Under the pieces are notes generated by a model, which was given only the letters and a program-made list of their open reading frames with translations, had not been told where the DNA came from and made no database searches. Source: Entophlyctis helioformis (lineage: Eukaryota; Chytridiomycota; Chytridiomycetes; Chytridiales; Chytriomycetaceae). Taken from it: 64,000 nucleotides of DNA. Shown here piece after piece: positions 14,501 to 40,929 of this stretch. The position numbers were made by a program, and so were the translations under genes. The stretch lies in contig JAHLKH010000077.1 in assembly GCA_025526915.1 (NCBI GenBank), forward strand, positions 1 through 64,000, written 5' to 3'. How positions within the stretch are numbered: position 1 is the stretch's first letter; the number at the start of each line of letters is the position of its first letter.

Positions 14501-16774
14501 TGCGTCCGTGTCAGCTGCGCGTGGTCAAAGAGCGCGTTGAGCTGCAGAACTGTCGGCTGCGGGAGCACAATGAGCTCAAAGTCGTATGCAAGCGAGTGCG
14601 ACGACTCGGTGTCGGCCATCAGCTCAAACGGTGCCGCTTCGCTCTTGCCGCCCAGACCGTCATCCGGCACGTTCTCGAGCACGACAAGCGTGTTGAACAG
14701 CTTGGCGTCGGACGGAAGACCCGTTGTCTTGGCCACGTCGATCAGACCGGCGTGCGAGTGCGGCAGCATCAGGCCGTGGTCGGACTGCATGGTGCGCATG
14801 AGATCGGCAACCGGAATGTCGTCCGAGCCAATCTTCACACGGCAAGGCACCGTGTTGATCATTGCACCGATGATGCTGTTGTCGAGGATGCACACGCGAG
14901 TTGTCAGCCGTTGCTCACAATCATCAGCCACAAGCACACGCAGCAGAAGCATCCACAAGCAGCAACATCAGCATGCGACTCACCGATCGGCACCAGCAAC
15001 GGGAATGTCACGGCCAGACACAACCTGGCCAAACACAATGTCGTTGGACGCGTGTACTTGCGCAGCATCATGGCCCACGCCGCCTTGATGAGCACGGCCG
15101 CTGTGACGCCTGCCTGCTTGCACACCGCTTGGATCTGGTGGATTGGCGTGCTGCACTCGAGCGACAGCGGCTTGTCCTCGGGGGCGTCCTCAAAGCCGTC
15201 CTTGCCGTCCTTGCCGTCCTTGCGTCCCATTTGCCGAGCGACAGCGGCTCGGCAGGCACAATGTGCGCCAGATACTCGCGCCAGAAGGACTCGGTCGCCG
15301 CGGTGTCCTGTGCCGCAATAAAGTCGACCACTGACCGGAACGGCGGACGGTCGGCAAGGGGCGTGCCGTCGAGTGCGTCCATGAGGTCGTTGATGATCAT
15401 GGGGAGGGACCAGCCGTCGTACAGCGTGTGGTGGATCGTGAGCACAACGACTTGCGTGGCATTGTCGGTGCTCTTGCCACGCATGGACATAGGCAGCACA
15501 GACGACGTGTTGGCCGGCTCGAGGAGAGCAAGACGGATCCAGAGACCGTCGCCGACTGTGAAGCCACGCTGGCGGTCGCTGGCAACAAAGGCCGCAAGAT
15601 CGGCGTCGCTGGCCATGACAGCACGGTGCAGCGCAACATCGCGCTCGCTGACACGCAGACGCACGACCTGCACGATGCCGTCAGCCGTGGCAGTTGGGAC
15701 AAACGACGTGCGCAGGATGGCGTGGTGCTGCACCAGCGTGCGGAACGCCGAGCCGAGAGCAGCGGGATCGACGGTGTGCTTGGCACGCAGCACGACCTGG
15801 TTGACGTATGCACTGCTGTCTTGCATGGTGGCAGCCACCATACCGGACTGCAGCGGCGTCGCGGGGAAGATGTCGACCTGCGAGGCTGCATCGACGGAAG
15901 CATCAGAAGCACCGGAAAGCACCGGAAGCGCCAGCCGTGGCAACAGGCAGACCGAGACGATCCGACCATTCAAGAGCGATCTCGTCACGAGCAGCCTGTG
16001 ACACAGACGCCGCTGGCCACGAAGGAGTACCGGCTGGGTCGGCAGATGCAGAAGGGGTCAGATCGCCAAGCGTTTTGGCGCCGAGGAGCTGTGACGCTGA
16101 AAGCTCGATGCCGCTCTCCTTTGCTTTGGCGGCCATGCGAATAGCAGAGATCGAGTCGCCGCCCAGCTCGAGAAAAGACGCATCGTTCGACAGGGAGCCA
16201 ACGTCGATGCCGAGAATGTCGGCATACATGGCCTTGAGCTCGTCGGGCATCCCGCTGAGGTCAAATTCCGACGACGCTGCAGCCGGTTTGATTGGCTTGG
16301 GAAGCTCGACCTTGGCTTCAATCGGAGCCGCAACGGGATTCTCGGCATTGGCCGTCACGGCTGCCACATGGATGTTCCGATCTGGAAAGCGCAGCGTCAA
16401 GATCAAGCGAAACGAGAATGTGTGGATAAAGTGGTCAGGAGGAGTCGTTTAAGCAAGTGCACAAGAGTGCCAAATGAGGTACACTTGCCATTGGCGAGCA
16501 ACTTGGGACTCGGAAGCGAGAGTGTAGATGGCTCCTCGCCTTTGTTTCCGGTGCTGCTGGTCGGCGAGGCAGCTTGACTACCGTCGAGCGACACGGGACT
16601 TGGAGGCGTAAGCAAAGCAGGCAGCTCGCCCTGCTCCTTGGCAACGGCGGCAGGCGAGGCGCTAGCGTCTACGCGGTAGTTGATGCCGTTGCTGGCGGTG
16701 ACAGATGGGACGGCAGCGTTGAGAGTATTGCCAGAGGCAGCGGTTGAGGGAGGGAGATCGTAGACAAGAGTCAT
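11550..16774 (-). CDS. Non-ribosomal peptide synthetase, T-C-A-T-FSH1 hydrolase
   Basis: Four exons: 16774-16489, 16381-14984, 14875-12408, 12325-11550; intron 1 has a GC donor (G|GCAAGT). After a ~95-aa low-complexity leader come a carrier domain (ELGGDSISAIRMA), a condensation domain (TPLQSGMVAA, HHTLYDG), an adenylation domain (FTSGSTGTPKG, NSYGPSE, FKTGDLGRMLPDG, GYRIELDE, NGKTDKKAL), a second carrier (FALGGDSISAF) and a serine hydrolase of the FSH1 family (IACFHGS, LLGHSEGAH, DGGHEVPH) in the place of a thioesterase. A basic tail follows. Three single-base indels (an extra T near 15915, a missing A near 15232, a missing C near 15044) break the ORF; undoing them gives 1643 codons. The first carrier has no partner A domain, so it needs loading in trans. 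Product unknown. Confidence 0.9.
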
Positions 16775-17866
16775 GGAGTCGAGTGGCTAGACTTGTATTG
16801 CGACTTGTTGGGTCTGGTTGATTGCTTGCCTTGCAAAAGGAACTGTCGTCGCTGTCGCCGAAGCAATTATTGGTGGTGATTGTCGGTATAAAAGGAGGCA
16901 AGAGGTGCGCAATGGTATGGAGGCGTTCAGGCGTCAGTCAAGACAAGGTGTAGCACTTCAAGGGGAAGAGACAAGGAGCAGCCAAGAGATGCACAGCCAT
17001 ACGTCTAGGTAAGGATGAGGGAAAGCCGATGTCAATGCCTTGGTGATTAAAATCACAAGTCGGCAGGCACGCGGGGGCGGGTGCCAGATCGCCGAGTGTT
17101 TTCACGACAGGCAAGGCAAGACGCCCACGTGGCGGGTCGAGCCCTTGTGGAGTCGATGAGGCTGTGAGTGCAAAAGTGTGCACAGCACGTGTGGCAGGGC
17201 GAGAAACAGGCATCTGAGAGAGGTCATCTGATGTGCCAAACGATGGCGTGATTGCGCGACTGCTGACGAGACGAGCCCGCTGCGATGAGTTGACGCGTTG
17301 GACTCTGGACTCGTTGGAGGTGGTGGGAGTTTTGGGCAGCGCTGGTGCTGTTGCACTGTGCTTGCGCAGACGGCAGGACTGCGCGACAGAAGGAGAGAGG
17401 GGCAGAGGGACAGAGGGGACGAGCTTGTAGGCAGCGATGCGGATGTGAGCGCCGTGCTGGCGAGTGCACGGCAGCCGGCAGCAGCAGCAGCAGCGAGTGC
17501 CGCGCGGCAGGTGTGGCTGGATTCGATTGTGGATTGCCAGTCGGCCACACGCCCACACGCCAACACCAGACGGACTGATACCAGTTTGCACAGCACACGT
17601 GTCCGCATGGACCCGTGGCCGTGACGCCGGCGAGCGACCCACGCCCATCATCGACTGACTGTCACTGCCCAACCGATGATGGCGGCTGATTACGAATCGC
17701 GCGTCACGCGCTTCTGCCATGCCAAAATGTGGCAGTACAGGCTTGGCTGTGTGGCACAACCATCCCGCCTGCGGCATCCACGTGGCCGAGATCCGTTGCA
17801 TATCTGGTCGTCGATGGGCTCCACCGACGCTCGTGGATTCGCAGACCCTATCTGGTCAACTCTCCA
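16775..17866. promoter_or_regulatory. Divergent intergenic region NRPS / ABCC transporter
   Basis: About 1.09 kb separate the two start codons. I see no convincing gene here. Bases 17058-17831 are the first copy of the 0.77-kb direct repeat; 16775-17057 is unique. A TATAAA motif on the minus strand is not obvious, but GGTATAAAAGG lies at 16885-16895, roughly 110 bp upstream of the NRPS start. Overlapping ORFs in this region repeat exactly in the second copy and look like chance GC-rich frames. Confidence 0.5.
17058..17831 (+). repeat. 0.77-kb direct repeat, copy 1 (5' flank of ABCC gene)
   Basis: Matches 27169-27941 with about six differences over 773 bp by eye, including one single-base indel (CAACCGATG versus CAACCATG). 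Both copies are in direct orientation. Copy 1 ends 36 bp before the ABCC start codon, copy 2 53 bp before the ABCG start codon. No terminal inverted repeats, transposase or LTR-like ends are visible. I read it as a duplicated upstream region and not as a transposon. Confidence 0.93.
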
Positions 17867-20800
17867 ATGCCGAAAGCAGATCCAGTGGTTGTGTCGTTGG
17901 ACGCCAACCACCACGCCGACCACCACGCTGACGATGGCAAGAGTGCTGGCAGCGGCAGCAAGCTGGCCACCGCGGCCTTGCCCGCCACTCCGCCCCTGCA
18001 GATCAAGCGCAACGCCTTCTCCTTTGTGACGCTGTCATGGCTGACGGCGACGCTGAAGAGGGGCTACCGCAAGCCGCTGCAGCAGGAGGCAAGTCTGTGC
18101 ACACCCTCCGATCCCACCCAGGCTGCTCACGGCTGGTCGCTCGGCCTGCCCCGTGCACCGTCGCTGCAGAACAGAGGCTGACAGCGGCTCCTGCGCTCCA
18201 CAGGACCTTCCCCAGCTCAGCGTCAACGACCGGACGGCCACCAAGGCAATCGTGCTGCAGCCGTTCTGGTCGCAGTTCAGGACGCACTCGGCCGATCCGC
18301 AGCGTGCAGCGCCTCCGTCGCTCGGTGCCGCCCTGTCTGCACACTTCTACGGCCTCTTGTGAGTCGCATCCGACTGGCAGTCTCTGCGACACTCTGCATC
18401 TTCAACCAGGCACTGACAACCGCCACACTTGCAGCTTGATTATGCTGGTGGCGCAGGCAACCGAGGCGGCCATCAACATCCAGCTGCCGCTGCTCATCCC
18501 GCAGATCCTCAAGGTGCTGCGCTTCGGCAGCCTGGCGCCAGACGTCATCATCTCCAACGCCTACGGCCTCGCCTTTCTCTTCTTTGGCCTCCAGGTCCTG
18601 CGTGTCGTCGTCAATGCGACGCAGAACGCCGTGCGCATCAACATGGCCATGAACCTGCGCTCTGTTCTGATCGATGCCATCTTTGGCAAGGCGCTTCGAC
18701 TGTCGGCAAAGGGCCGCTCCGAGTACCCAGCCGGAAAGATCAACTCGCTCGTCGACGTCGACTCGCTGGCCATTGTCGGATTTCCTTCCAGCTTCCTCAC
18801 GCTCGTCGTCTCGTTGGGCCAGATCGCATCGGGCATCTACTACCTGTCCCGCGAGCTCGGCATTGCAACGCTGGTCGCCATGGGCACCTTTGTTCTGTTC
18901 CTCGGCCTTGTGTTTGCCCTGCTGCCCTCGGTCAACGCGGCCTTTGCAAGATACATGACATCGATGGACTTGCGCACCAAGTACTTGCGCGAGTTCCTGT
19001 ACGGCATCAAGGTCATCAAGTTCCAAGCCGCCGAAGAGCTCTTCCACGAGTCCATCACTGCGGCGCGTGCTCGGCAGCTGTCGGCCCTCAGTGGCATCCT
19101 TGTGCCGCTGGCGACCTTGTTCTCGCTCCTCGTCTTTTTGCAGATCGGCATCGCCCCCGTCGCCATCATCTCCTTTTACGCCTTTGGCGGCGAGATGTCG
19201 TCGGAAAAGGTCTTTGCCATTCTCGGTCTGCTGAGCGCCGTGACCTCGCCTGTCGGCTTCATCAGCAACGCATTGACGTGAGTTCCGTGCGGCCGCCATT
19301 GAGTGTTTGGATGTGGTCGCTGACACGATCCTTGCAATCCGTCCCGCTTCATCAGAGATGTCATCAAGTTCTTTGTGTGCTTCAAGCGTGTGCGCGACTT
19401 TCTGGCTTCTCCCGAGGCTCAGCCCGGCGAGTCAACGCTCTTGCTCGCAGAGGACCAGTCTGACGACGGATCTGCCATCAAGATCGATGGCGCCACCTTT
19501 ACCTGGGAGGAAGTCAAGAAGGATGACCCTCAAGGTTCCAAGAGCAAGAAGCTGTCGAGAAGGGCCAAGAAGATCGCCAAGAAGGCTGCAAAGGCCGGTG
19601 CCGACGCCAACACAAGCACCGCCGGGCAGCTGCACGAGCCGTTCAAGGTCGAGGACATCAACCTGTCCATCCCGCGCGGCTCGCTGTTGCTGTGTTGGCT
19701 CTGTCGGATCTGGCAAGTCGTCGTTCCTGTCTGCTCTCATTGGCGGCATGCGCAAGACGGCTGGCTCGTCGTCCGTCTTCGGATCCGTCGCCTACTGCGC
19801 TCAGGAGCCGTGGATCCTGACCGGCACCATCGAGGAGAACATTGTGTTCAGCGACGAGTCTGTGCGTCCCAACATCGCCAAGGCCGTGTCTGCCTCGTGT
19901 CTTGAGCACGATCTCGAGATCCTCCCCAACGGTCTCGGCACGCAGATTGGCGAGAAGGGCATCAACCTGTCTGGCGGCCAGAAGGCTCGTGTTGCACTCG
20001 CTCGTGCCATTGCTCGCGACGCCGATATCTACCTGCTGGACGATCCCATTGCCGCCCTTGATGCCACGTCGGCAAGAAAGTGTTTGACGAGGCCATCTGC
20101 GGCACGCTCAAGAGCAAGACGGTCGTGCTTGTCACGCACCAGCTGCACCTGCTTCCCAAGGTCGACTTTGTTGTCGTGCTCGATGACGGCCGTGTTACCG
20201 AGACGGGCACGTTCAAGGATCTCATGGTCAAGCAGGACGGCACCCTCGTCGAGATGATGAAGGACTACCAGGTCGACGACGAAGACGACAAGGACGATAG
20301 CGAGTCGACCATAAGCAGTGAAGAGGAGGAAGAGGTTGCCATGGCGATCAAAGAGTTTGAGGAGGAAAGAGCCGCCGCCGAGGACCGCCGTGTCGGCGCA
20401 GTTCAATTCTCGACCATCCGATCCTTCTTCCTTGCAGCCGGAAGCGCGTACTTTGGCTTCGTCATTGTGCTCTTCACAATGCTCGTGGGCATGTCTGCCA
20501 TGGTCTCGATCACGCTCTCCATCTGGACAGACAACAAGTGGGGATGGACGCTGTTTGACTACTTCAAGTTCTACGTTGGCATCACTGTCGGCCAGTCTGC
20601 CATTGCCAGTAAGTTGGTTTGCTCGTCGCTTTGATGCGCTTCTTGAATGTCTCTTGGCACTTACCCGCCATACCATCGTCACTATCCACAGTCAGCTTGA
20701 TCGTGATTGCATTCGTGCTGTGCTACCGCTCGATCGTGTTCATTCACAGCACGGCTCTCGCTGGCCTGATCCGCGCGCCAATGTCCTTCTTTGAAAGCCA

Positions 20801-22540
20801 GCCCATTGGCCGCATCCTCAACCGCATGACGACGGATGTCGAGTTCCTCGATCGCGACTTTAACCAGATGCTGATCAACACGCTGGCTGGTGCTGTGACG
20901 TTTGTGGCTTTTGGTGCAGCCATTGTGTACGCATCGGCCATCTTTTGGGTAAGTTGCGGCCATGCTTGCTGCGTTCCAATGCGCCAGCTCCGAAGCTAAC
21001 ATTCGAGACGCTTTTTGTGCATTCTACACTCTCGCGCACCAACAGTCCAGTTTGCGGCCATCACTGCCGTCAGCCTTCTCGTCTACCGCTTCTACAACGT
21101 GTCTTACCGCGAGCTCAAGCGTCTGTCGTCCATCATGAAGTCGCCGCTCAACTCGCACGTCTCAGAGTCGCTCAACGGCATCCCGACCATCGCTGCCTAT
21201 GGCGTCCAGTCCAAGTTTGTCGCCACTGAGCAGACCAAGATGGATCTGCTCAACCAGTCGGCGTTGCTTCTTGGAAGCTCTCAGCTGTGGCTGGCATTCC
21301 GCCTCGAGATGCTCACGTCGACCGTGACGCTCGTTGTTGTCATTCTGGCAGCCCGCGAAGTGATCAAGGGAGGCGACGTTGGTCTTGCGCTCAACTGCTC
21401 GATCATGCTTGGATCGTCGCTGAACCAGCTGCTTGGGCTATCCAGTGAGCTTGAGGCTGCCTTCAACTCGGTCGAGCGACTCAACTACTACGCCAACGAC
21501 CTGCCGTCCGAGGCTGCCCGCCTGCTGCCCAACGACCCTGCGACCAAGGACGAGTGGCCGACTGCCGGTGCACTTGCCATCCGCGACCTGCAGATCTGCT
21601 ACGACTCGCGTCCCGACCACGCCGTCATCAAGAACCTGTCGCTCGACATCCGTCCTGGCGAAAAGGTCGGCATTGTCGGCCGCACCGGCTCGGGCAAGAG
21701 CACGCTCATGACGGCCCTGTTCCGTATCATGGAGGCATCCAAGGGATCCATCACCATCGACGGCCGCGACATTGCGACGCTCGGTCTCAAGACGCTGCGC
21801 TCTCGCCTGCAGATCATCCCGCAGGAGCCCGTGCTGTTCAAGGGAACCGTGCGGTCCAACCTCGACATGCTGCAGACGGGATACACCGACGACCAGCTGT
21901 GGGAGTCGCTGTCGCTCGTGGGTCTCAAGGACTACGTGGCTGCGCAGACAGACAAGCTGGATGCGGCGATCGAGGAAACGGATCCAACCTGTCGATGGGC
22001 CAGCGCCAGCTGCTGTGTCTTGCCAAGGCCATTCTCGCGCGGCCCAAGGTGCTCATCATGGACGAGGCGACGGCGTCGGTGGATGCCGAGGCCGACAAGC
22101 GCATCCAAGAGTCGATCCGGTCGCAGTTTGCCGACACGACGGTGCTGAGCATTGCGCACCGTCTCAACACGATTGCGGCGTTTGACCGCGTGCTTGTGCT
22201 GGACCAGGGCGAGATTGCCGAGTTTGATGCGCCGCATGTGCTGCTCGGCCGGGCTGGCTCTGTGTTTGGTGAGCTTGTGGATGCGACTGGCGCTGCCAAT
22301 GCTGCTGTCATTCGCGAGATTGCGTCTGGCCACTTCAACGCCTCGCAGGTGTGATCTGTCTGTATGTCTGTCTGTCATCAATACACCCTTGTGCAACAGC
22401 CACCACTGCCCTTGAGCACGACAGACAGCCAGACTCGCACAGTGTTCAAGCAGACGACTGTGCAGGAGCAGCACGCCATCGCCATGGTGCACTTCCTGGA
22501 CACGTTCCTGACCACGACTGCTCGTGCAGCCAAGAAGTGA
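17867..22540 (+). CDS. ABC transporter, ABCC/MRP type (full-length TMD-NBD-TMD-NBD)
   Basis: Seven exons: 17867-18088, 18204-18358, 18435-19277, 19356-20608, 20692-20948, 21046-22348, 22433-22540. Intron 1 has a GC donor (GAG|GCAAGT) and joins PLQQE to DLPQL, a hallmark of the ABCC N-terminus. NBD1 has Walker [10 protein letters not shown], signature LSGGQ and Walker B IYLLDDP; NBD2 has [14 protein letters not shown] and [13 protein letters not shown] charged linker ([11 protein letters not shown]) precedes NBD1. Single-base deletions, in or beside short homopolymer runs, occur near 19690-19705 (two), 20063, 20947 and 21975; restoring them gives 1382 codons. The family exports conjugates, drugs and peptides across plasma or vacuolar membranes. 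Divergent from the NRPS, it is a candidate exporter or self-resistance pump for its product. Confidence 0.9.
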
Positions 22541-22775
22541 TTGTCCCACAAGAAAGCATCAATTATGACATTGACATTCATTGACGCCAGCATGCATAAT
22601 GGCAGATGCCACTTCACACGACCATCAACAGGCACTTCTCACGGTTTCTCACTGACTTTGCATTTTGCCACAGCTTCAGATATCTGGTTCTCACTCATCA
22701 GCTCGTCCAGCTCGGCAAGCTGAGGGTTGACGAGTCGGTCCACAATGCGCTCATGCTGATGTCACAGTGGACCAC

Positions 22776-24166
22776 TTAGAGGGATGCGAGGTGCTCAAGA
22801 GCAGCCAGACCGTGAATAATGAATGCCACGACATTCTGGAGGGCAAGAGATGCGTCATGTGAGCACAGCATGGCGTGGTCGTGATGGAGCAGCTGCTCCT
22901 CAATGAGCATGATGCCATTGCCCTTGCTGTCAGGTCATGCGAGACAAAGCATTTGGCGATGTTCGGGTGGCCCTGGACCCATTCAGTCATGTGGGCCACC
23001 TTGGTACATGATGTGGTAGCCGGCTTCTGGAGCCGCCTCCATCTTGTGCCAAAACGAGTTGAGGGCGAGCATAGCCCTTCGCCATGCTGCTGCTTGATGC
23101 CTACGCGCATGCACGTCCAGGCGGTTGGTGATCTCAACTGGAGAGGGGAGCCAACTGCAAGGCCGCCAATGAGCCACTCCAGAGCATTCTGCGACTCGTC
23201 CGCAGCAATGTCGTTTGCCCTGCGAACCGCAGTGCGTGAGGTGGCTGCCCAATTGAGACGAACATGACCGGGTTGTCAAACATGCGGCTGGATGGATCAA
23301 GCCGCCCAAACTGCTTGAATGCCGCGACATAGATGATGCCGAACCGCGACAAAGAGAACATCCGCCGGGCAACAGTCTCCGAGCGAATGGCGGCCAAGAG
23401 ACGAACGACGTCGCTGCTGGTAGCCGCCTCGCGCTTTGCTCGCTGTCGTGCAAACACTATCATCGCCTGCTTCTTGGCTTCGATGATCCAGCTACCTTTA
23501 AGCAGCAGGTGCGCGATATCTGGTCAAGTCAACAACAAAGAGTCAGCAAGCAAGCAGACCCAGAGCCAGCACAGCAGAAGCACACATACCGTCAAGGATG
23601 GTGGTTGCGCGTTCAACATCATAAACGCGATCGCTGACGATGGTGTCGTCGTCGGCCAGCGGCTCTCCATCCAGGAGGACGCTCAGACTAGTCTTGACGA
23701 CCTTATGCTCTTTGGCGATGTGGTCTTTCAGAGCCAGGACGGTTTGCTGCTGGGTGAGCTTGAAGGGGTGCTCGTCACCATCGAAGGTGTAATACACCCA
23801 GCGTTGGCGCTGGCCGGTGGGTCGTGGTGTCGTGGCCTGAGCCGATGCAGCAGCAGGAGCGGCTGCGGTTGCTTGTGCAGCGGTTTCGTCCGAGACAAAG
23901 AAGGGATTGGCTGGATCGAAGAATGCCGGCTCAGGGTTTTGTTGGCGGTCTGCAGACGAACTGCCACCGGCGGGGCGTTGCGAGGGTCCTGCAGCCGAAC
24001 TGCCACTGGCGGTGTCGTGGGCAGAGTCCGCTGCTGGTGCTGTTTGCGGCTGGCCTTTGCGAGGCCGTAGGACCCTTTGCGAGCGGCCGCCAGCTTGTCC
24101 TTCGCCCGACATCTGGTTGGCAGTTGACAGTTGAGGCGGAAAGATGCGAAATCCACGCAGATTCAT
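22776..24166 (-). CDS. Uncharacterised protein with ubiquitin-like domain (several frameshifts)
   Basis: The first exon (start 24166 or, better, MSGEGQ at 24112) encodes an Arg/Gln/Ala-rich leader and then a ubiquitin-like stretch: WVYYTFDGDEHPFKL, LKDHIAKEHKV and LSVLLDGEPLADDDTI, with beta-strand/helix spacing like ubiquitin. An intron (donor G|GTATGT near 23590, acceptor TTGACCAG) leads to a second exon, DIAHLLLKGSWIIEAKK. Downstream the coding potential moves between frames at least three times (near 23253, 23146 and 23010), finishing as ALQNVVAFIIHGLAALEH and a TAA at 22776-22778. I cannot name the C-terminal domain. The gene converges on the ABCC transporter. A link to the adjacent metabolic genes is not shown. 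Confidence 0.5.
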
Positions 24167-24190
24167 TCGTCGGAACAGAGCGGGATCGTG

Positions 24191-24799
24191 CTATCCAGCG
24201 TCGTGCTCGACAAGCACGGCGACATCGTCGCTCTTCTGTCGGGCGTGCTGCCCCAATGGCGTGCCTGCTGATATCCGCACGATCGCCTCTCTGTCGGCAT
24301 TCAACCATCCGTCTTTGATATCAATAATACTCGAGTCTCGATCACTCTGCGACAAGCTGCTGTTGCTGTTGTTGTCCGAGGATGCCGCTGTCGATGGCGC
24401 TGTTGCCGTGTCTGACCGCCGCTTGCGACGCAGCTGATGCAGCCGGCGACGATTACGACGACGGTCTCTGTCTGCCTTGATGTCCAGCCGCAGACGCCGG
24501 ATCCGACGATGGCGGACGAACAGGAAGACGGCGGCGGAGACGAGGATGTTGAGCACCACGATGCCAATGACGACTCCCTGCGAATGCGGCATGCTGCGTG
24601 AGTGTCTGGAGTCGGCTGCATGCACAAGAGCAGCGCCGCGATGGACGTGAGAGAGCGGCAATGCACCCACCATCCAGATCCAGAAGAAGCTGTCGCCTTG
24701 GCGGTTGATGTCTTGGATGCGAGAGATCTCTGTGCTGTCAGTCTGCGCGATGGGCTGCGATGGTGCTGGCGACGGCTGCTGTGGCTGTTGGACAGACAT
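24191..24799 (-). CDS. Small single-pass membrane protein
   Basis: Two exons. MSVQQPQQPSPAPSQ begins at 24799; a donor ATG|GTGGGT and an acceptor CATTCGCAG join phase 0 to GVVIGIVVLNILVSAAVFLF, a clear transmembrane segment. A strongly basic stretch (RHRRIRRLR, DRRRNRRRLHQLRRKRR) then gives a positive-inside cytosolic side, followed by a Ser/Asn-rich tail. By the positive-inside rule the short N-terminus is outside or lumenal. Family unknown. Its stop lies only 24 bp from the next possible start codon of the downstream gene on the same strand. Confidence 0.6.
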   Translation of the reverse strand: MSVQQPQQPSPAPSQPIAQTDSTEISRIQDINRQGDSFFWIWMVGALPLSHVHRGAALVHAADSRHSRSMPHSQGVVIGIVVLNILVSAAVFLFVRHRRIRRLRLDIKADRDRRRNRRRLHQLRRKRRSDTATAPSTAASSDNNSNSSLSQSDRDSSIIDIKDGWLNADREAIVRISAGTPLGQHARQKSDDVAVLVEHDAG

Positions 24800-25059
24800 G
24801 GCAGGGCAATGGCAAGAAGGTGGCGGTGGTGGTGGCAGTGGTTGTGTGTCGTTGTGTGCAGCAGATGGAGCGCAGGCAGCATCCGCTCTTTATGGAGATG
24901 CGGCTGCGGCAATGACAGACAGAGCGGTGCACGACGCTGACACTGCCAGGGCAGTGCAGCGATAAGCAGATTGCACAGCAAATTTTGGTAAACCGAGAGG
25001 TCTTCTGTATTGCAAAGTGTGGGAAGGCAGGGACAAGGAGCAAGACCAGCAGGGAAGGA

Positions 25060-26830
25060 TCAAGCCGTCTTGGTGGCAGCAAGGGCAACGGACAGCTTCT
25101 CGCGCAGCACACGGCGCAGGATCTTGCCAGACGCAGCACGCGGGATGGCGTCGATAAACACGACACCGCCACGCAGCTGCTTGTGCTGGGCGACCTGGCC
25201 AGCAATGAACGTCTGGATCTCGGCCTCGGTGGCCGTCTGGCCGGGGTGCATCACCACAAAGGCGAGGGGCAGCTCGCCGACAGCCTCGTCGGGGCAGCCA
25301 ATGACGGCCGCATCGGCGATCTTGGGGTACGACAGGAGCTTGCCCTCAAGCTCGGCAGGGGGCACCTGCAGACCAGAGTACTTGATGAGCTCCTTGAGAC
25401 GGTCGACAATGGTCAGATGGCCATCGCAGAGATGATCGCACATCGCCGGTGTGGAAGTAGCCGTCGGCATCGATCGAGGCGGCAGTGGCCTCGGGGTTGT
25501 TGTGGTAGCCCACCATGACGTTGGGACCGCGGACCCAGAGCTCGCCGATCTGGTCAGCGGCCATGTCATCGCCAGTCTCGGGGTCGACAATACGAGCCTC
25601 GATGTTGGGGGCAAGCACGCCGATCGAGCCGTGCACAGGCTCCTTGAGCGGGCACAGACTGATGAACGGCGTCGTCTCGGTCAGACCGTAGCCCTGCACC
25701 GAAATGGCACCGAAACGCTTGGTGATCGCCTCGGAGATGGCGGCAGGGAAGGGAGCAGCGCCAGTCACAACGCGCGAGAGGGCCGACAGGTCAAACTTGT
25801 CGACGATCGGGTGGCGGGCAAGGGCCAGAGCGACGGGCGGCACAATGAGGGCCGTGCGGATCTTGTGCGTCATCATCGTCTTGAGGAAGAGGAGCATGTC
25901 GAACTTGAACATGACGGACACGGGGATGCCCTGCAGCACAGCGATCAAAGCAGGCGGCGATGAGTGGCATACAGACACTGCAGCAAGATACGACGTGACT
26001 TACGGCATGCGGGACCAGGTGGAGAAGCACCTGCAAAGCGTACATGTGGAAGAACGGCAGGAATCCGATCCAGGCGTCGTTCTCGATCTTGTACTCGTCC
26101 ATGAACGCGAGCGTCTGGAGCACGTTGGCGACCATGTTGCGGTGCGACGTGACGACGCCCTTGCTCTTGCCGGTCGTGCCGGACGAGTAGGTGAGGTACG
26201 CAGGCTTGTGGGCAAGCTCATCGGCCGTGAACTCGACCTTGGTGTACGGCGCCGTCGAAAAGAGCGACGAGACGGGCTGCACAGACTCGATGGCCTCGGG
26301 GGCAATCACAAACACGCGGGCAGCGGGGATGCCAGCCTGTTCGGCAGCAGCGAGACCGTTGGCGAGCGTGTCCTTGTCGACAATGAGGACCGAGGCGGCC
26401 GAGTCCTTGAGCTGGTAGAGCAGCTCCTCGACGGTGTAGGTCGAGTTGACGGTCGTCACCGTGCAGCCTGGAAGATACGACGCGATGCGAGGCGATGCGA
26501 GGCAAGATCAGCAGTGTGCAGGATGCTATGTATGCCAAGACTGCCCTTACCAGCAAGGAGGGTGCCATAGACGAGCGAGCCGTAGTGGATGTTGTTGGCG
26601 CTGTACAGCGCAACAACGGACCACGCCTCAAGTCCAAGTTCCGTCTTGAGACCGGTGGCAAACGCCAGCGACTGGTCGTGCACCTGCTGGAAGGTCAGCG
26701 ACTTGCCGGTGAGGGCGTCGACAGAGGCGGGCTTGTCCGGGTTGGCCTGGAAGCGCTCAGAGTCGATCACAAACGAAGCGGCATCGATCTCGGGGACGGA
26801 AAGGTCGGCGTAGGAAGAGGTGAAGACCAT
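25060..26830 (-). CDS. AMP-dependent acyl-CoA synthetase / 4-coumarate-CoA ligase-like
   Basis: Exons 26830-26551, 26467-26004 and 25930-25060. ANL-superfamily motifs run in order: YSSGTTGKSKGV (phosphate loop), QGYGLTETTP, GELWVRGPN, GYFHTGDV, VDRLKELIKYSG and PRAASGKILRR with the catalytic Lys. The layout and length fit the 4CL/luciferase-like acid-CoA ligases, which adenylate a carboxylate and then form a thioester with CoA. No SKL-type peroxisomal signal is present (the C-terminus ends KTA). Two single-base deletions near 25435-25450 break the frame after HTGDV; restoring them gives 539 codons. Divergent from the ABCG transporter. In this locus it could activate an acyl or aryl starter for the NRPS carrier; the substrate is unknown. 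Confidence 0.88.
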
Positions 26831-27993
26831 GTTGTAGGCTGGTTGTGTCTGAGTGGAAGGAGTGCCACGAGAAAACTACTTCCCCTTTATACCAGCGCAG
26901 CAGATTGTGAGGCGAGGCCAGCCACGGAGTTGGCCAGCGCCGCAGATCTCGTGACGGGGCCAATTCAACCGTGGTCGTCACAGGGTCGGACGAGCAGATC
27001 CAAGCTCAAGCCTGGTGGGCGACAGGAGCGGTGTGTCGCAGATACGAAACGCCATCGTGGCTGCCATGGCCATTGTTGGTCTCCAGCGCACAGCACAGCA
27101 CAGCATAGCACAGCACAACGGCGCCAACAAGAGGATGCGGAATGCACAGGGCCAATCCGTCAAGGGCGAGTCGGCAGGCACGCGGGGGCGGGTGCCAGAT
27201 CGCCGAGTGTTTTCACGACAGGCAAGGCAAGACGCCCACGTGGCGGGTCGAGCCCTTGTGGAGTCGATGAGGCTGTGAGTGCAAAAGTGTGCACAGCGCG
27301 TGTGGCAGGGCGAGAAACAGGCATCTGAGAGAGGTCATCTGATGTGCCAAACGATGGCGTGATTGCGCGACTGCTGACGAGACGAGCCCGCTGCGATGAG
27401 TTGACGCGTTGGACTCTGGACTCGTTGGAGGTGGTGGGAGTTTTGGGCAGCGCTGGTGCTGTTGCACTGTGCTTGCGCAGACGGCAGGACTGCGCGACAG
27501 AAGGAGAGAGGGGCAGAGGGACAGAGGGGACGAGCTTGTAGGCAGCGATGCGGATGTGAGCGCCGTGCTGGCGAGTGCACGGCAGCCGGCAGCAGCAGCA
27601 GCAGCGAGTGCCGCGCGGCAGGTGTGGCTGGATTCGATTGTGGATTGCCAGTCGGCCACACGCCCACACGCCAACGCCAGACGGACTGATACCAGTTTGC
27701 ACAGCACACGTGTCCGCATGGACCCGTGGCGGTGACGCCGGCGAGCGACCCACGCCCATCATCGACTGACTGTCACTGCCCAACCATGATGGCGGCTGAT
27801 TACGAATCGCGCGTCACGCGCTTCTGCCATGCCAAAACGTGGCAGTACAGGCTTGGCTGTGCGGCACAACCATCCCGCCTGCGGCATCCACGTGGCCGAG
27901 ATCCGTTGCATATCTGGTCGTCGATGGGCTCCACCGACGCTTGCCAATCTTCACTCGCCAACCAACCAACCGCCACCTGCCTGCCTGCCCGCC
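26831..27993. promoter_or_regulatory. Divergent intergenic region acyl-CoA ligase / ABCG transporter
   Basis: About 1.16 kb between start codons and no convincing gene. Bases 26831-27168 are unique and include a short CACAG-rich tract near 27090-27118; 27169-27941 is the second copy of the direct repeat. TTTATACC at 26885-26892 on the plus strand reads as a TATA-like motif for the ligase, about 55 bp upstream of its start. Confidence 0.45.
27169..27941 (+). repeat. 0.77-kb direct repeat, copy 2 (5' flank of ABCG gene)
   Basis: Direct-orientation partner of 17058-17831, offset by 10,111 bp at its left end. The high identity extends over noncoding DNA that should drift freely, so the duplication is recent or the copies are kept alike by gene conversion. 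A direct repeat flanking 10 kb is also a substrate for deletion or excision of the ABCC-to-ligase segment. Confidence 0.93.
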
Positions 27994-30900
27994 ATGCTGG
28001 TCGAGTTCGACGACCCGCCGCTGTTCCCCAACGCCCCGTGCTACTTTAACAACCAGACGAGCGGCATCGTGCTGTCGAGCGACTACTCATGCCCGCCCGG
28101 CTACTTCTGCCCCAACCTCAAGCCCGCGGACCCGACGACGCTGCCGGTGATGTGCCCGCCCAGCCCGCTGTGCCAGATTTATCGTTTTGGCTCGGTGACC
28201 TGCCCGGTGCGTTGTTGCATCCTTGCGTGGCTGCTGCCAGCCGGCTGTGCACCAACAGACGGGCCGCTGACACACCACTCGCTCGCTCGCTTGCTTGCCC
28301 GCCTTCCCACCTGCAGCCGCAGGGCAAGTATGAGCCGTCCATCTGCGACCCGGGCTACTACTGCCCGACGTTCAAGGAGAAGCTCAAGTGGTGCGTAACG
28401 CCTCCTATCGACAATGTGGCTGTTGGCTGTTGGTGGGCGATTGCCGCCTGTGCCCATCTCGTGACGATCGAGGCTTGGCCCAGACGCAGCGAAACTGCCC
28501 TGCTGACCTGACCCATCGATCCTGCGCTCTCCCCGCCCGACTCGCTGGCTGCCCATGCACCTGTCGCCAGTCCTGCAGGCAGCTACTGCCCCTCGGGCAC
28601 GGTGACGCCCATCAAGTGCAGCGCGCTGTCGTCGTGCCCGGAAGGCGCCTGGACGCAGAGCACGCCCGTCAGTCTGCTGGTCTGCATCGCCATCGACCTG
28701 ATCCTCGTCGTCGTGCTCTTCTCGCTGCGTCTCCGCGATATCCGCCGTTCTGGCGGCGCATGGACCGAGATCCTGCCCGCCTTTGTGCGCTCCCGTCTGA
28801 CTGCTCGCCGTGCCCGCGTGCCGTCGTCCGCAGCGTCCTCTGCCAAGGCTGTGCCGTCTGCGTCGACTGACGAGCTCACCGCGGACGTCTCGACGGCTGT
28901 CCTGGTCAGTGTTGTTGACCACACTTCGGCCGCCACGGCCAACACGACCACCACGGCTGCGATGCGCGAGTCCAAGGCCAACATCGCGTCGCTGACCGAG
29001 ACATGGCGCCGCGGTCTGAATGGCCACGACTTGCACCTCGACTTTACCTTTACCGACATGGGCCTGCAGCTGCCGTCTGGCAAGCAGATCCTGCAGGGCG
29101 TCAACGGACAGATCAAGTCGTCGCGCATGACGGCCATCATGGGCCCGTCGGGTGCTGGCAGTGAGTGTGCTGCTCGTGTCTGCCCATGTCGTCTCTGCAT
29201 TGGATTGCAGCCGCAGTTGGACTCACACGCCTCTTGCACGATCCCAACTCCGCTCCAACCCCGCTTCCACCCGGCCAGAAACCACCTTCATGAACGTGCT
29301 GTGTGGCAAGGTCAACCGCACCAAGGGCGAGCTGTTTGTCAATGGCAACAAGGCAGAGATCCCGCAGTACAAAAAGGTCATCGGATACGTGCCGCAGGAC
29401 GACATCATGATCCGCGAGCTGACGGTGCGCGAGGTCGTGCTGCACTCGGCCAAGTGCCGTCTGCCGCGCTCGTGGACCAGTGCCGAGGTCGAGACGCACG
29501 TTGATGATCTGCTCCGTGCCCTCAAGTGCGTTTGGTGGCTCTGACTTGCATGCGGTGTCGGCTGGACTGCACTGGACTGACTTGAGAATGCACGCCTCCC
29601 TGCAGCCTGTCGCACGTTGCACACACTCCCATTGGTGACGAGACCACTCGCGGCATCTCTGGCGGCCAGCGCAAGCGCGTCAACATCGCCATCGAGATGG
29701 CCGCCGTGCCGCTCTGCCTGTTCCTCGACGAGCCCACGTCCGGCCTGGACTCGACTGCCGCGCTCGATGTCGCCGATATTCTCAGCCAGGTGTCGCAGCT
29801 CGGCCTCACGATCGTCGCCGTCATACACCAGCCGCGCATCGAGATCTACCGCAAGTTTGACGACGTGCTCATGATCGCGCCGGGCGGCCGCACCGCGTAT
29901 CTCGGCCCCACCTCGCAGGCCAAGTCGTACTTTGAGAGTCTCGGCTTCGAGTTTGATCCCAACTCCAACGAGGCGGATGTGCTCATGGACATTCTCGCTG
30001 GCAAGGGCATCAATGCCGTGGCGCAGCTGTCGCCCGACGATCTTGTGCGTCTGTGGGCCGACCGGTCGGCCGCCATCGACAAGAGCGGCGCAGTCACGAT
30101 CCCAGCTCCGATCGCCGACAAGAGCCTCGACAAGCTCATCACGTCGATCGCCCAGGAGCGCGGCGCCAGCCACTTTATGCAGGCCGTCTACTGCCACAAC
30201 CGCTCACTTCTCCAGCAGCAGCGTCTCTCGGGCACCATCTTGCTCGAAGTGTTTGTTGGTCTCTTTGCCGGTCTCCTCCTCGGCCTCGCGACCATCTCCG
30301 ACATTGAGCTGTTTTCCGTCATGTACATCCCGCCGTTCACGCCGCTGTCGCCGGCGCCGCTGGATCACCTCATTCCGCTCACGTCGCTGCTCATGGGCAT
30401 GTCGATTGCGCTGGCGAGTGGATCGGCCGGTGTGAGCGTGTTCAGCGAGGAGAAGACGGTGTTTTGGCGCGAGGCGTCTGCGGGCCACTCCAAGTTTGGA
30501 TACTATGCCGGAAAGACGGTGGCGACCTTTTACCGTCTGCTGTTGTCGAGTCTGTAAGTCTTTGTGTGATCGGCTGTCTCTTGCTCATGATGCACTTGAT
30601 GCACTTGATGCTCACAACATGCTGTCTTGTGCGTGTATGCCACCAGCCACTACGCGGCCATCTACCGCATCCTTGCCACCCCGACGATCACGTTCCCGAT
30701 GGTGTACCCGATCGTGCTGCTCCTCTTCTTTGGCGTGTACGGCGTGTCGGCGCTCATTTCGATGCTCGTCAGCCGCGAGAACGCGCGTCTGCTGTCCGTC
30801 ATCACCAACATGTTCATTGCCGTGTTCTGTGGCTACGGACCCACGCTGCGCCAGGCCAAGAACTGGGGCATCATTTTCATCTGGGAGCTGTCGCCCGCCA

Positions 30901-31198
30901 AGTGGGCCGCCGAAGCCTTTTGTAAGTCCTTCTCCCTTGCTTGCTCGTGTTGTTCATACTCGAGATGTCCGGGAACGCTGACACTCTGACGTGCGTCGCG
31001 TCGCGTGGCGGATACACAGACTCGGAGTCGGTGCAGCCGTTCAAGGACGTGTACTTGACCAGCATCACCACCAAGGCCCTCGGATACACCGTCGACCGCT
31101 ACGCCTTTGATGTGCTGATGATGCTCGTGCTCGGCGTCGCCTTCCGTGCCGTCGCCTTTGTGCTGATGCTTGTCATCAACAGAGAGAAGCAGCGCTGA
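27994..31198 (+). CDS. ABC transporter, ABCG half-transporter with Cys-rich N-terminus
   Basis: Seven exons: 27994-28206, 28317-28390, 28571-29160, 29279-29525, 29606-30553, 30647-30921, 31020-31198; the sum is 2526 nt (841 aa) with no frame errors. The N-terminus carries Cys-rich modules (CPPGYFCP, CDPGYYCP, CPAGSYCPSG), then a membrane segment, then the NBD: Walker A GPSGAGKTTFMN, VPQDDIMIRELTVRE, signature GISGGQRKRVNI and Walker B LFLDEPTSGLDS. A C-terminal membrane domain follows. NBD-before-TMD order is diagnostic of ABCG. This Cys-rich subgroup is found in fungi and plants. It must dimerise to work. Substrate unknown; position suggests export related to the NRPS/ligase locus. Confidence 0.92.
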
Positions 31199-34969: not shown

Positions 34970-36529
34970 ATGAGTTCAAGCAGCGTCACGGCCGCCGCTC
35001 CGCCTGCCACGCGGCCCATGACGGCCGACGGCCCGGTCCTGGCAGGCACCAATGCAGGCACAGCAGCAGGCACAGCAGCAGCCAGCAGCAGCCAATGCAG
35101 GCACAGCAACAGCAACAGCAACAGCAACAGGCACGGACACGGACGCAGACGCAGACGCAGGCGCAGACGGCCAGCACCCGCCGGGCTACGTGGCCGACTC
35201 GGGCAGCGTGTGCATGCCGCTGTCGTCGTACCCCGGCCTGCTGGTGCAGCTGACGCCGTTTGAGCGCGGCCTGGTCGCCTTCCGCATGGCCCTGATGGCC
35301 GCCCAGGTGCGCTCTTGTGGTCTTGCTGTCGTGGTCTTCTAGCCTCGCTGTCGTGGTCTCGCTGTGGTCTCGCTGTGCCTGTCGTAGTAGTCTTGGTCGC
35401 GGTATTGCCACGCACGCAGCATACGCAGCACACGCAGCACATGCCCTGCCACGCTTGCCACGTTGCCGAATGCGGTGCACACACACACGCATGCCATCTA
35501 ACACACACCGTACAGATCGCCCTCGCCGTCTCCGCCCTCGCTCTCGCAGACCGCGCCGCATGCGCCCCCACCTACTCCACCGCCCTCTTCGCGTCCGCCA
35601 TCGTCTTCTCGCTCGTGCTGCTCTGCGCCCCGCGCTACTTCCAGCCCGCCCGCCGCACGTCCCAGGACCCCGTGCTCATCGCCGCAGAGGCCCAGCGGCG
35701 CAGGCGCATCAACAACATCGACCTGCTGTGCCTGATCCCGTTCATCATCGCAAACGTCGCCGTCTTCTCCGTCTCGTCCTGCAACGTCGACGCCCCGCTC
35801 CTCTTCTACTCCAACCTCACGCTCGTCATCATCGGCTACATGTACTTCTGCTCGCCCCTCACCTGGTGCATCCTCGCCGTCGCCTTCTCGCCGTGCCTCT
35901 TCCTCCTGTTCCACTACATGCAGCGCACCCAGGCCCTGCGCGCAAACCCCTTTGACGGCCGCATGGGCGCCACCGAAGACATCATCAACGCCATCCCCGT
36001 CTTCACCTACCGCAAAAAGGTCGTGCCAGAGCCCAGACCCGACATCGAGGCCCCCGCTGACTCGCCCGTGTCGCTTGCTGCCGTCCCTCCGCCTGCCGCG
36101 TCTGCACAAACCACATCGCACGCGTCACCCGCCTCACAAGCCTCTGAGCCTTCTGGCTCATCCAGTCCGGCCAAGGCTGCACCGCCCAAGCGGAAACGCC
36201 GCAAGTTCAACCTGCTGCCCAGCATCTTCAAGCGCGGCAAGGGCTCCGCGTCCGACGCTGGTGCCGACGCCGACGCCGATGCTGCACAAGCGGCTGCACA
36301 AGCGGCTGCCGGCCCCAAGGAGCTCGAGCTGGACGCAGAAGACGCCGTCTGCTGCATCTGTCTGGGCGAGTACGACGAGGGCGAGTCGCTGCGCCAGCTG
36401 GCCTGCAACCACCACTTCCACGTCGACTGCATCGACGAGTGGCTCAAGCTCAATGCAAAGTGCCCGCTCTGTGTGCGCAGACTGCCCGACGACGGCAAGG
36501 GCAACAAGTCTGGCGCGGCATCGCACTAA
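34970..36529 (+). CDS. Multi-pass membrane RING-H2 protein (putative E3 ubiquitin ligase)
   Basis: Two exons (to 35306; 35516-36529). The N-terminus is Ala/Gln/Thr-rich. ATG 34970 and the main frame are joined only if there is a 1-nt indel near 35085; ATG 35052 is in frame and is the fallback start. About four membrane spans follow ([54 protein letters not shown] and [13 protein letters not shown]). Next come a Lys/Arg patch, an Ala/Asp-rich linker and a C-terminal RING-H2 finger ([23 protein letters not shown]), which recruits a ubiquitin-charged E2. Substrate unknown. Its last ~380 coding bases are duplicated at 3030-3413 in the chimeric ORF. Confidence 0.85.
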
Positions 36530-39500
36530 TCCATCGCCCTGCGCCCTTCGCCTCTCGCCCTTCGCCTCTCCCCTCTCAACCTGTTGCCCTCGCCTGTTAC
36601 TGGCCCAGCCATGCACGTCCCTTCTTTTGTCCATTGGATTTGCACAATATCACATTTCCGTTCTGTACCTGCAGCTTCCTTGTTTGGCCTTGCTCCTTCC
36701 ATCCTTCCATCCAGCCAACGCGTCCATCCATCCCACACGCGTCTGTTGGTGCAGCAACGCATCCATCGCTCGCTCTTTGTCCAAACAGCAGCAGCAGCAG
36801 CAGCATGGACGCCATTGGGCATGGCACGCTCGCCCTCACTACCACCGTGCTGCTCGTCGTTGTTGCTCCTCTCTACGCCGTCTATGGTAAGCCTGGCTGC
36901 CTGCCTGCCTGCCTGCCTACACACACTGAGCTGTGTAAATGCGCGCTTGGCTCGCATCTGACTGTGCTGCTCCAGCCTTCCCGGCCGAGTCGGCCCTCGT
37001 CGTCGTCATCGTTCTGTGCATCGTCTTTGGCCCGGACAGCCGCGCGCCGGACTTGTCGGCTGAGGCGGCTGACCGTCCCGCTGCCAACGACCGCTCGCCG
37101 CCCAGACGGCCGCCTGCAGATGCCACGCACGATGCCACTCACGGTGCGCCGCACGCCAAGCAAGCGGTTGCTGTTGCTGTGGAGACCGCGGCACCTCACA
37201 CACCGGTCCCGTCAGTCACACCGGTCCCGCCTGTCCAGCAGCCGCCGGACAAGGCTGCTGTCAGCGTGCGAGCCGACGCGCGCACTCATCTTGACAACTC
37301 CAGCCTTGTTGGTGCACCGCCTGCGATGGCAGCCGCGTCTGCTGCAGAGGCCGCCAACAAGCCTGCGATGCCGCCCCGATCCAGCGCGGCGCTTCATCAC
37401 CACAGCCAGCTGCCGCAAGCCGGCCCTCCTCCCGTGGACCTTGCTGCTGCTGGCTCTGCTGCTTCCACTCAGCCCCCAATCCACCTCGCAGCGAGCGTCG
37501 CGGCTCAAGCAGTCGAACGCCATGACCCACTCCCAGCACCGTCGACAATGCAAGCCGGGCAGCATCAACCTGCTGAACCACTGCAGCCCATGCCGGTGCC
37601 GGATCCAGTCGAGCAGCACCAACCGCGTCTGCAGCCTGCCCAGCTCAAACCGCCCATGCCAGCTGCATTCCAGAAGCCTGCCGATCCAGTGGCAGATCTT
37701 CTGAAGCCAACGGTTTGGCAGCAGCGAGTGCAGAAAGTGCAGCAAGTGACAAGATCTTTCGATCTGCCACCAAAGCATGCTGTTCAACCTGCCCGAGCCG
37801 CACAGCATCCGCCACTTGCGACGCCAATCGCCGAGCACCTGCCGCACCAACAGCCTGTCCAACTCGACCCAACCATGCCAGATGTGCACCTTCCGAAGCA
37901 GCCCGATCCTGCCGTGTATCCTCAGCCGCAGTCGCCAAAGCAGCAACCGCATGCTCCACCTTGCTCGCCCGAACTCGCGCAACAGGTCACTGCGTCTCCA
38001 GTGCAGCCACACCCAGTGGTGCCGCCTGCACCGCCAATACCTGCAGCACAGCCTCCCGCACGACCCACCATGAAGGTGCTCAAGCCAGAGGTGCGAGTGC
38101 CGGTCCAGCCGATTCCTCAACAGAAGGCTGTGGTCGAACAGCAGTCGCCAGCAGATCCAAAGCAGCAGCAGCAGCAGCAGCAAGCCGATCCTCCAAAGCC
38201 AGTCGCGCATCGCCTTTCTCTCTTTCAACAGAAGCAGCCAAAGCCAAAGGTTCCCAATCTGCCATGGTCTGATCTGTCTGCGCAACAGCCGGCTCCTCCA
38301 CAGCCGCCCGAACCCCCAAAGCCAGTCGCTCCACCACCAAAGCCAACCAGCCATTGGGATAGTCTCCCCTCGCGCATCCAGGACATCATTCTTGGCTTCG
38401 CGGGACCGCTGACACAGTTTCTCAACGGCCGGCTGTCCAGGACGGTCATGACTGGCGATGCCAAGATGCGTCTGTGGAGGGATGCATTCGATCTGGACTG
38501 GACGGGCAGTCTGCTTCTGCTTCCAGATGCCAAGCTGAGTCGCGGGGAACTCGACCGAGTCAAGAGCAGCGCAATGGCCAAGGCTCTCTGCTGGCGATTC
38601 ACAAGCACCGAGATGCAGGCTCTGCTTGCTGATCTGTCCATGCAGCGACTATGGCTTGATGGTCTGCCACCTTGGCCACCTGCCGACCTTGGCATGCACG
38701 CTGTGAAGGGCGGACACGCGGCTGCACTCGCAAAGATGCTCGACAAGCAGACGCTGTTTGTTCAGGATCTGGACAGACACGACGAGTCGGTGCGGCATGG
38801 CGGGTCTGTGGTGCATGTGGCGGCTGCACATGGCGCTCTTGGCGTTCTCGAGGTTCTGAATGAGCACAATGCGAGTGCGACTCCCCTCGCACTGGATGTG
38901 GCAGCAGCACGTGGACACCTGGACGTTGTTGTCTGGCTGCACGAGAACAGGAGCGAGGGCTGCAGTGCGAACGTGTTTGACTGGGCTGCGCAGGAGGGCC
39001 ACGCACGCGTCGTCAAGTGGCTGCACAGCAAGCGCAACGAGGGATCGTTGCGGGTTGTGGTTGAGCCAGCCAGGATGGATGGCGTTGAGCGGCTGCTGGC
39101 GACGGCATTCACAATGTGAGCACTCTGCTGGCCATCTCGCACTCGTTGTGCTGCTCGCTTGAAATGCCAATGAAGTGGTCGAGAGAGAAAGCAGTCTATT
39201 GAAACAAGAGTCTTGATGAGCGGAGGGATGATATCACCTCACTTGGCAGCCTTCTTGGCACCGCGAGTCTTGCGCTTCTCCTTGTGAGAAACGATCGGTC
39301 CAGCCGGGATATCAATCGCAGCAAAGACCTTGCTGCTGGCAGGCTTGGCTGGCAGGGGCGGCAGTTCAGCCTGCGTCGTGGTCGTAGCCGAGACATCAGA
39401 TGCAGCCTTGGCACCTGCTGCAGCCAGAGCAGCATCTGCAAGAGCACAGATCCATCGCGATCCATGCACGAGTCAGTCGCGCCATTGACCAACAATGCAT

Positions 39501-39550
39501 GATGCACAGCATGCCAGGCAGGGACACCAGCAGCGTCACATACCTCTTGC
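36146..39550 (+). repeat. Source copy of the inverted segmental duplication
   Basis: Partner of 1-3413 in reverse complement. It begins at an 18-bp stretch inside the RING coding sequence (36146-36163), also present at 44010-44027 and 3396-3413. It runs through the ankyrin gene into the Cys-rich gene. Identity is very high by eye, with differences mostly single-base and run-length changes. Confidence 0.9.
36805..39119 (+). CDS. F-box-like/ankyrin-repeat protein, copy 2 (intact)
   Basis: Exons 36805-36886 and 36976-39119 give exactly 742 codons. The N-terminus has two hydrophobic segments (LALTTTVLLVVVAPLYAV and ALVVVIVLCIVF), so the protein may be membrane-anchored, with a reentrant or hairpin topology. 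A ~400-aa Pro/Gln/Ala-rich region with a poly-Gln run (from about 38164) follows. The C-terminus has an F-box-like helix (SLPSRIQDIILGFAGPL), an Arg/Lys-rich stretch and degenerate ankyrin repeats (GHLDVVVWLHENRSEG, AAQEGHARVVKWLHSKR). Such F-box-like/ankyrin proteins form large families in chytrids; specific roles are unknown. Confidence 0.88.
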
Positions 39551-40335: not shown

Positions 40336-40656
40336 GGCATCCAGGTCAGAGGATCAGCGGATGCTCAGAGCAATCAGAAACAATGCAACCGTCGCGAGCA
40401 TGTGGAGTGTCGTGGGACGGACGGTTGAAGGCTGCCGCCCACGTAGGGATGGCTGGATCTTCGGGTTTACGAGAGGACTTGGTTACAGTGGAGTCAGCCT
40501 CGAGCTACTCCAGCAGTACGACGACGGATACGGTTGACGATGGGTTGGCTTGGGGAAAGCCCAACGCCGCCCGCCCTCTGGCACTGCACTCCTGCTTCCC
40601 TGCCACGCGACCCACGCGGCGACCACCCACGTGCACAATTCCCTTCCGCCCCCTTC

Positions 40657-40929
40657 TCACTCCCACGTGTCCACCGTGTCATCGGAATCCTCCGACATCC
40701 CATCATCTGCAGCTGTGCCTTCGTCGTGGTCCACGACAGGAGCATGAGAGAGGCAAGCCGCACATAAGGCAGACGGCACGCACAAGGTCACAGACACCAA
40801 TGATGCATGCATGCAATGCGAGGAGATCAGGAAGATGGCATGGCAGAAGAGCGTACCCTGCGTGTTGATGTGGCCCAGCATCGCCACTTCCGCGAATGTT
40901 GGTGTCTTGATGTTGACAGTCGAGAACAT
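40657..40929 (-). CDS. Possible very small two-exon gene (about 42 aa)
   Basis: ATG 40929 opens MFSTVNIKTPTFAEVAM. A donor G|GTACGC at 40857/40856 and an acceptor GCACAG before 40712 join in phase to an acidic tail (ADDGMSEDSDDTVDTWE) that stops at 40657. Good splice signals and an acidic end support it, but the length is small and no homologue is recognised. It lies divergently from PAM2-like copy B, across the upstream repeat block. Confidence 0.3.
   Translation of the reverse strand: MFSTVNIKTPTFAEVAMLGHINTQGTLFCHAIFLISSHCMHASLVSVTLCVPSALCAACLSHAPVVDHDEGTAADDGMSEDSDDTVDTWE

Follow-up and report, generated by a model that had tools for sequence, protein, structure and literature searches.

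A chytrid ABCG-type transporter gene with an ABCC-type 5' end: candidate capture of a promoter region, leader and start codon within a nonribosomal peptide synthetase locus

Promoter capture and chimeric genes are already known. In Saccharomyces, promoter rearrangements at SSU1 provide this exporter gene with a new promoter, raising expression and sulfite tolerance (PMC7336578, PMC8631656), and in chimeric gene duplicates a partial duplicate is joined to other coding sequence, possibly with regulatory elements (PMC3449122). Here we describe an unusual variant of such arrangements in the chytrid Entophlyctis helioformis, in a window of 64,000 nucleotides at the start of contig C77 (JAHLKH010000077.1; 115,945 bases), where a pair of near-identical repeats, P (copy 1, P1; copy 2, P2), precedes transporter genes of two ABC subfamilies, ABCC and ABCG, and the ABCG gene carries an ABCC-type 5' end. 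The locus resembles SSU1 in that an exporter gene would have acquired another promoter by rearrangement; unlike SSU1, for which the portions of those reports that we cite describe translocation or inversion and mention no carried-over codons, the acquired DNA duplicates the 5' end of another exporter gene within one locus. It likewise resembles the chimeric duplicates in joining a partial duplicate to other coding sequence, and differs from them, as far as the cited portion of that report goes, in that just 7 codons of the copied block are coding and nearly all the rest is promoter region and leader. In the literature on captured, duplicated or bidirectional promoters and on gene conversion, no title or abstract among those listed describes the transfer of a promoter, leader and start codon from one ABC subfamily to another. 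A published genome of E. helioformis strain JEL805, probably the strain sequenced here, is linked to Amses et al. 2022.

The repeats and the two transporter genes lie as follows:

17058–17831, plus strand: P1, flanking the window ABCC gene on its 5' side, within the divergent intergenic region between a nonribosomal peptide synthetase (NRPS) gene and the ABCC gene (99.2% to P2; partial matches of 72–76% to ABCC 5' flanks on contigs C349 and C15)
17832–17890, plus strand: U, start of the window ABCC gene (leader and first codons), at the place of the C15 leader (a query of 17826–17920 finds only itself in the genome)
17867–22540, plus strand: ABCC-type (MRP-like) gene, frame-broken as assembled (gene model, in which three 'introns' cover frame breaks)
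27169–27941, plus strand: P2, 5' flank of the ABCG gene, in the divergent intergenic region between a ligase gene and the ABCG gene (BLAST against P1)
27942–28015, plus strand: present 5' end of the ABCG gene, consisting of a leader, start codon and 7 initial codons (MLVEFDD) of ABCC type (93% to C15:134929-135000, 92% to C349:14830-14901)
27994–31198, plus strand: ABCG-type gene with intact frame, public protein P0121, BC831DRAFT_512884, 841 amino acids (gene model, protein comparison)

P1 (774 bp) and P2 (773 bp) are in direct orientation and 99.225% identical (BLAST E-value 0.0), with exactly six differences, five substitutions and one 1-base gap, where the initial annotation of this DNA had reported two ~99% identical flanks with about six. 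Its distances of 36 and 53 bp from repeat to start codon agree with the first ATGs at 17867 (ABCC) and 27994 (ABCG), of which P ends 35 and 52 bases short. The search for a third copy that it proposed, run on the whole assembly (29.57 Mb, 482 contigs), returned four matches: P1, P2, a partial relative of 76% at C15:135194-135372 and another of 72% at C349:15119-15309, with no third close copy. Both partial relatives lie upstream of ABCC genes. The same upstream DNA thus stands before two genes with unrelated bodies, the configuration of promoter capture, and assignment of those bodies through their relatives bears out the claim that two ABC subfamilies are involved. On the ABCC side, the relatives P0001–P0005 carry PF00664 and PF00005, as do P0006–P0009, which are named multidrug resistance-associated protein, so that the MRP-like assignment comes from Pfam matches on relatives and not on the window gene itself; among the matches listed, the closest ABCC proteins are from Polyrhizophydium stewartii (49–52%). 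The window ABCG protein is 100% identical to P0121, with an open frame, an ABC_tran domain and PF19055. The proposal of a recent event or conversion also holds: the copies of P show 5 substitutions over 773 aligned bases, less than the 2.8% separating the C15 and C349 ABCC bodies, whose flanks differ more, so copying or homogenisation of P is, by this sequence measure, young on the scale of the C15/C349 divergence.

The resemblance to ABCC genes continues past P2 into the ABCG gene. A genome search with the ABCG region matched 27942–28015 to C15 (E 2.1e-22) and to C349 (E 6.6e-21), two contigs that are not to be counted as independent loci and on which leader, ATG and seven codons are contiguous with an ABCC body. 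The N-terminus of the window ABCG protein is MLVEFDDPPLFP, compared with MNARQFKPEPYVFP in the ABCG paralogue on contig C13 and MAPPKEDTEKPLFP and MPPPKKLAEAPLYP in two P. stewartii proteins. From codon 8 onward the window gene looks like an ordinary ABCG gene, its alignment to the C13 paralogue and the P. stewartii proteins beginning at about an LFP or VFP motif, and the MLVEFDD codons are not present in these three ABCG relatives. Nor does 27942–28015 show above-chance similarity to the 5' end of the C13 ABCG gene (978 of 1,000 shuffles score as high). Because the leader and seven codons match the C15/C349 ABCC genes and are missing from the ABCG relatives examined, the ABCG gene, as read from these comparisons, carries an ABCC-type 5' end. 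The earlier description of a repeat that ends before the start codons is therefore right for P1 and P2 and incomplete for the ABCG gene, where 27942–28015 continues as ABCC-type leader and codons; a regulatory flank was indeed duplicated, and the block before the ABCG gene additionally holds an ABCC-type leader, start codon and seven codons.

The explanation we favour, and consider reasonably probable, is that P is the promoter-side 5' flank of an ABCC-type gene and that a 5' end of ~850 bp was captured recently by the neighbouring ABCG gene. An ABCC gene with P and a C15-type leader would originally have stood at this locus; the ~850-bp block of P, leader, start codon and seven codons would then have been joined onto the body of the ABCG gene, copied in the direction ABCC to ABCG by ectopic recombination or conversion within the locus; and the window ABCC gene would later have lost its leader and decayed. 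Since P ends so close to both start codons, transcription probably starts within P, and the ABCC and ABCG genes would share a core promoter. If P does hold the core promoter, the ABCG gene would follow the old ABCC programme, and co-regulation of the two genes would be predicted.

In its present form the window ABCC gene differs from the C15 and C349 genes at its 5' end. Its segment 17832–17890 is not similar to the C15 leader (713 of 1,000 shuffles score as high), 17832–17933 still faintly resembles the C15 codons (17 of 1,000), and a 12-bp tandem duplication lies at 17901–17924. The body is ~97% identical to those on C15 and C349: over 17934–22420 the identities are 97.86% (window and C15), 97.35% (window and C349) and 97.22% (C15 and C349), whereas the window 5' flank is only 59–76% identical to the C15/C349 flanks where alignable. 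Since the three bodies are about equally close and the flank is not, recent exchange between the bodies, or their homogenisation, is probable. A region around the second nucleotide-binding domain (window ~21450–22340) is moreover 96–98% identical to several further ABCC genes (for example on C106, C114, C287 and C73), other parts of which match the window at lower identity or in pieces, which suggests conversion of this region.

The reading frame of the window ABCC copy is not open as assembled. It has seven single-base deletions relative to both C15 and C349, two of them in an intron; six of the seven lie outside homopolymer runs and one in a run of five. C15 has one such deletion, in exon 1, and C349 none over the aligned part. 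When the first membrane and nucleotide-binding part is aligned in translation to two P. stewartii proteins, C15 and C349 each give one open frame and the window gives three pieces with two frame changes; a further frame change falls in the second nucleotide-binding domain. No identical public E. helioformis protein appears for the window ABCC gene among the best 120 of 126 hits. Decay and assembly error are both possible, and we lean towards decay. On that reading the promoter now in front of the ABCG gene may come from a gene in decay, subject to the same possibility of assembly error. The idea of two exporters under common regulation consequently fares less well: with the frame of the window ABCC gene broken and its nucleotide-binding domains affected, shared regulation of two working exporters is doubtful.

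Assembly error could in principle explain more than the frame, if one copy of P were itself a misassembly; the C15 deletion in exon 1 and one frame break in the window NRPS gene make indel errors possible. We consider such an artefact very unlikely, given that the copies of P differ at six positions and have unrelated flanks, and that the match of the ABCG leader to C15/C349 independently supports a mosaic 5' end. The public ABCG protein also starts with MLVEFDD, in a record that probably derives from the same assembly.

Several observations weigh against the explanation we favour. First, the window ABCC gene lacks an ABCG-type leader, so that one simple copy of its present form cannot yield the ABCG 5' end; the account requires in addition a later leader loss, an allele since lost or a second donor. 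Second, the identity of the ABCG 5' region to C15/C349 (gaps left out) is uneven. It is 43% for P 1–234, the level of unrelated sequence and no real homology; 70–71% for P 235–472; 59% for P 473–660, with more than 90 gap columns; and 73–76% for P 661–773; it then jumps to 96–98% in the ABCG leader and 95.5% in codons 1–7. This jump, at 27941/27942, coincides with the point where the window ABCC gene departs from the ABCG copy, and suggests two pieces of different age. Third, C15 and C349 may be a single locus: at both places tested, C349 (18 kb) aligns co-linearly with C15 (96% and 90%), and the two contigs may be haplotypes of one locus, the second retained in the assembly, or a segmental duplicate. 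Fourth, P2 with the leader (27169–27993) resembles the DNA upstream of the C13 ABCG gene somewhat above chance (5 of 200 shuffles score as high), which may reflect an old relationship; and fifth, N-termini are variable in both the ABCC and ABCG families.

The identity jump speaks for a two-step history, the main rival. On this account the ABCG gene first took an older, C15-type 5' end comprising a diverged P, leader and codons, and P alone was later overwritten by ectopic gene conversion from the window ABCC gene, in a tract ending where leader homology ends. The contrast between highly similar ABCC bodies (97.2–97.9%) and a divergent window flank, as if the bodies had been homogenised, would fit such a history. 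The conversion tract would nevertheless have had to import 234 non-homologous bases, as P 1–234 has no counterpart at C15/C349, and we judge this account a minor but serious possibility.

The fourth and fifth observations would instead suit a reversed direction, in which P and the leader originally belonged to the ABCG gene and were then acquired by ABCC genes; MLVEFDDPPLFP is also loosely like QFKPEPYVFP of the C13 ABCG protein. With N-termini variable, the direction rests mainly on where P or its relative stands: in front of ABCC genes in the window and at C15/C349, and in front of a single ABCG gene. The chance-level comparison of the ABCG leader and codons with the C13 5' end and the weak trace of C15 codons in the window ABCC gene point the same way, and we regard reversal as distinctly unlikely. 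For P itself, absence from the C13 upstream region is less certain than for the leader and codons: a blastn comparison of 27901–28700 with C13 gave no match upstream of the C13 gene among those listed, with a query that held only the end of P.

In 14 other ABCC-family 5' regions of ~1 kb each, selected from 64 matches, neither P nor the leader was present (0/14; best matches of 16–30 bases, at chance level), so P is, as far as these regions indicate, the flank of one lineage and not a common repeat, and a general habit of swapped ABC promoters was discarded as an explanation. One apparent second case was also rejected: C194:38753-39702, directly upstream of the C194 ABCC gene, is 99.9% identical over 950 bp to a segment of C103, and proved to be an insertion that has an A-rich end and is accompanied by an 18-bp target duplication, features suggestive of a non-LTR retroelement. 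A near-identical ABCC gene on C41 lacks this insertion. The genome thus contains a mobile sequence in just such a position, and P could be imagined as a transposon fragment that landed twice. This is extremely improbable: just two close copies of P were found instead of many dispersed ones, its C15/C349 relatives occupy the same place before ABCC genes, no inverted repeats of at least 12 bases occur in 16950–17950, and no target duplication flanks the ends of P.

The content of P was examined for functional elements. No Rfam family matches at the gathering threshold in 16700–28200, which ruled out an RNA element by that measure. P contains a minus-strand open reading frame of 168 amino acids, and its alignment to C15/C349 shows many gaps. 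The hexamer CACGTG occurs four times in P1 and three times in P2, against a shuffle mean of 0.76 (30 of 5,000 shuffles reach four, for a motif chosen post hoc). As a transcription-factor site it is a weak candidate because of that choice and its absence from the C15/C349 flanks.

Each copy of P sits in an intergenic region between divergent genes at an NRPS locus, a setting not noted in the initial annotation, with the NRPS gene opposite P1 and a ligase gene opposite P2:

11885–16774, minus strand: NRPS with PP-binding, Condensation, AMP-binding, PP-binding and FSH1-type hydrolase domains, divergent to the ABCC gene (Pfam domains, gene models)
25060–26830, minus strand: stand-alone adenylate-forming ligase (AMP-binding and AMP-binding_C), divergent to the ABCG gene (Pfam domains, gene model)
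26843–27168, no strand assigned: 326-bp spacer from the ligase start to P2, unmatched elsewhere in the genome search

The condensation, adenylation and thiolation domains of the NRPS occur in order, the Condensation match covering only profile positions 3–211 of 456. Its start is modelled at 16774 or 16250 with nearly equal scores, and its one frame break lies near 15048 as assembled. The domain order is similar to that of Batrachochytrium dendrobatidis BDEG_03514.1, described in the cited portion of its report as T-C-T-A-T-FSH1 (PMC2823734), including the FSH1-type end, and unlike it in that no second T domain was detected between C and A in the window NRPS.

The ligase side of the ABCG upstream region has its own discontinuity. 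The ligase has its closest relatives on C55, C391, C86, C6 and C43; these are 91–97% identical in pieces, with homology stopping at about the ligase start codon, and those on C55, C391, C86 and C6 lie divergent to NRPS genes. On C55, C391 and C6 the ligase and NRPS genes flank an intergenic region that is 95.6–98.3% alike among the three, and C86 shares parts of it; in the window its place is held by the 326 unmatched bases, P and the leader. That homology ends at the ligase start suggests that the region upstream of the ABCG gene was rebuilt on the ligase side too. P as a resident of other NRPS/ligase pairs was considered and dropped, as none of the five regions (C55, C391, C86, C6, C43) matches P, while they have parts in common among themselves.

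Elsewhere in the genome, at least 118 frame pieces (which are not domains) match Condensation on 21 contigs (for example C82, C153, C65, C178 and C41), a large NRPS expansion in this chytrid. Several contigs with Condensation matches (for example C41, C194, C19 and C178) also hold ABCC genes, and four (C55, C391, C86 and C6) hold the ligase. Neither C15 nor C349 is among the 118 matches listed, and no NRPS domain was detected by Pfam in stretches on the flanks of the C15 ABCC gene within a 9.5-kb region. Within the window, cation efflux and Na/Ca exchanger domains lie on either side of the NRPS locus (9.9–10.9 kb and 31.9–32.2 kb, both on the plus strand). Long repeats, shared at 94–98% within the window and with C34, C256, C314 and C196, occupy 1–6264, 36146–44027 and 61098–63935, and one frame of 1–3413 encodes a RING-finger domain.

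The arrangement may represent an exporter succession in a biosynthetic locus, in which, in one recombination step, the ABCG gene would have taken over the promoter, leader and start codon of a decaying ABCC gene and, with them, its place in the cluster expression programme; we offer this as a tentative and rather doubtful extension of the capture of the 5' end. A 2010 survey that included one chytrid genome described, in the portion cited here, NRPSs as scarce in Chytridiomycota. If true, the locus would provide, in a phylum called NRPS-poor by that survey, a base-by-base record of the one-step recruitment of a gene of another family to cluster control, and would make it testable whether clusters recruit new exporters through promoter capture. 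It would also serve as a warning that, in such gene families, bodies and promoters can differ in history.

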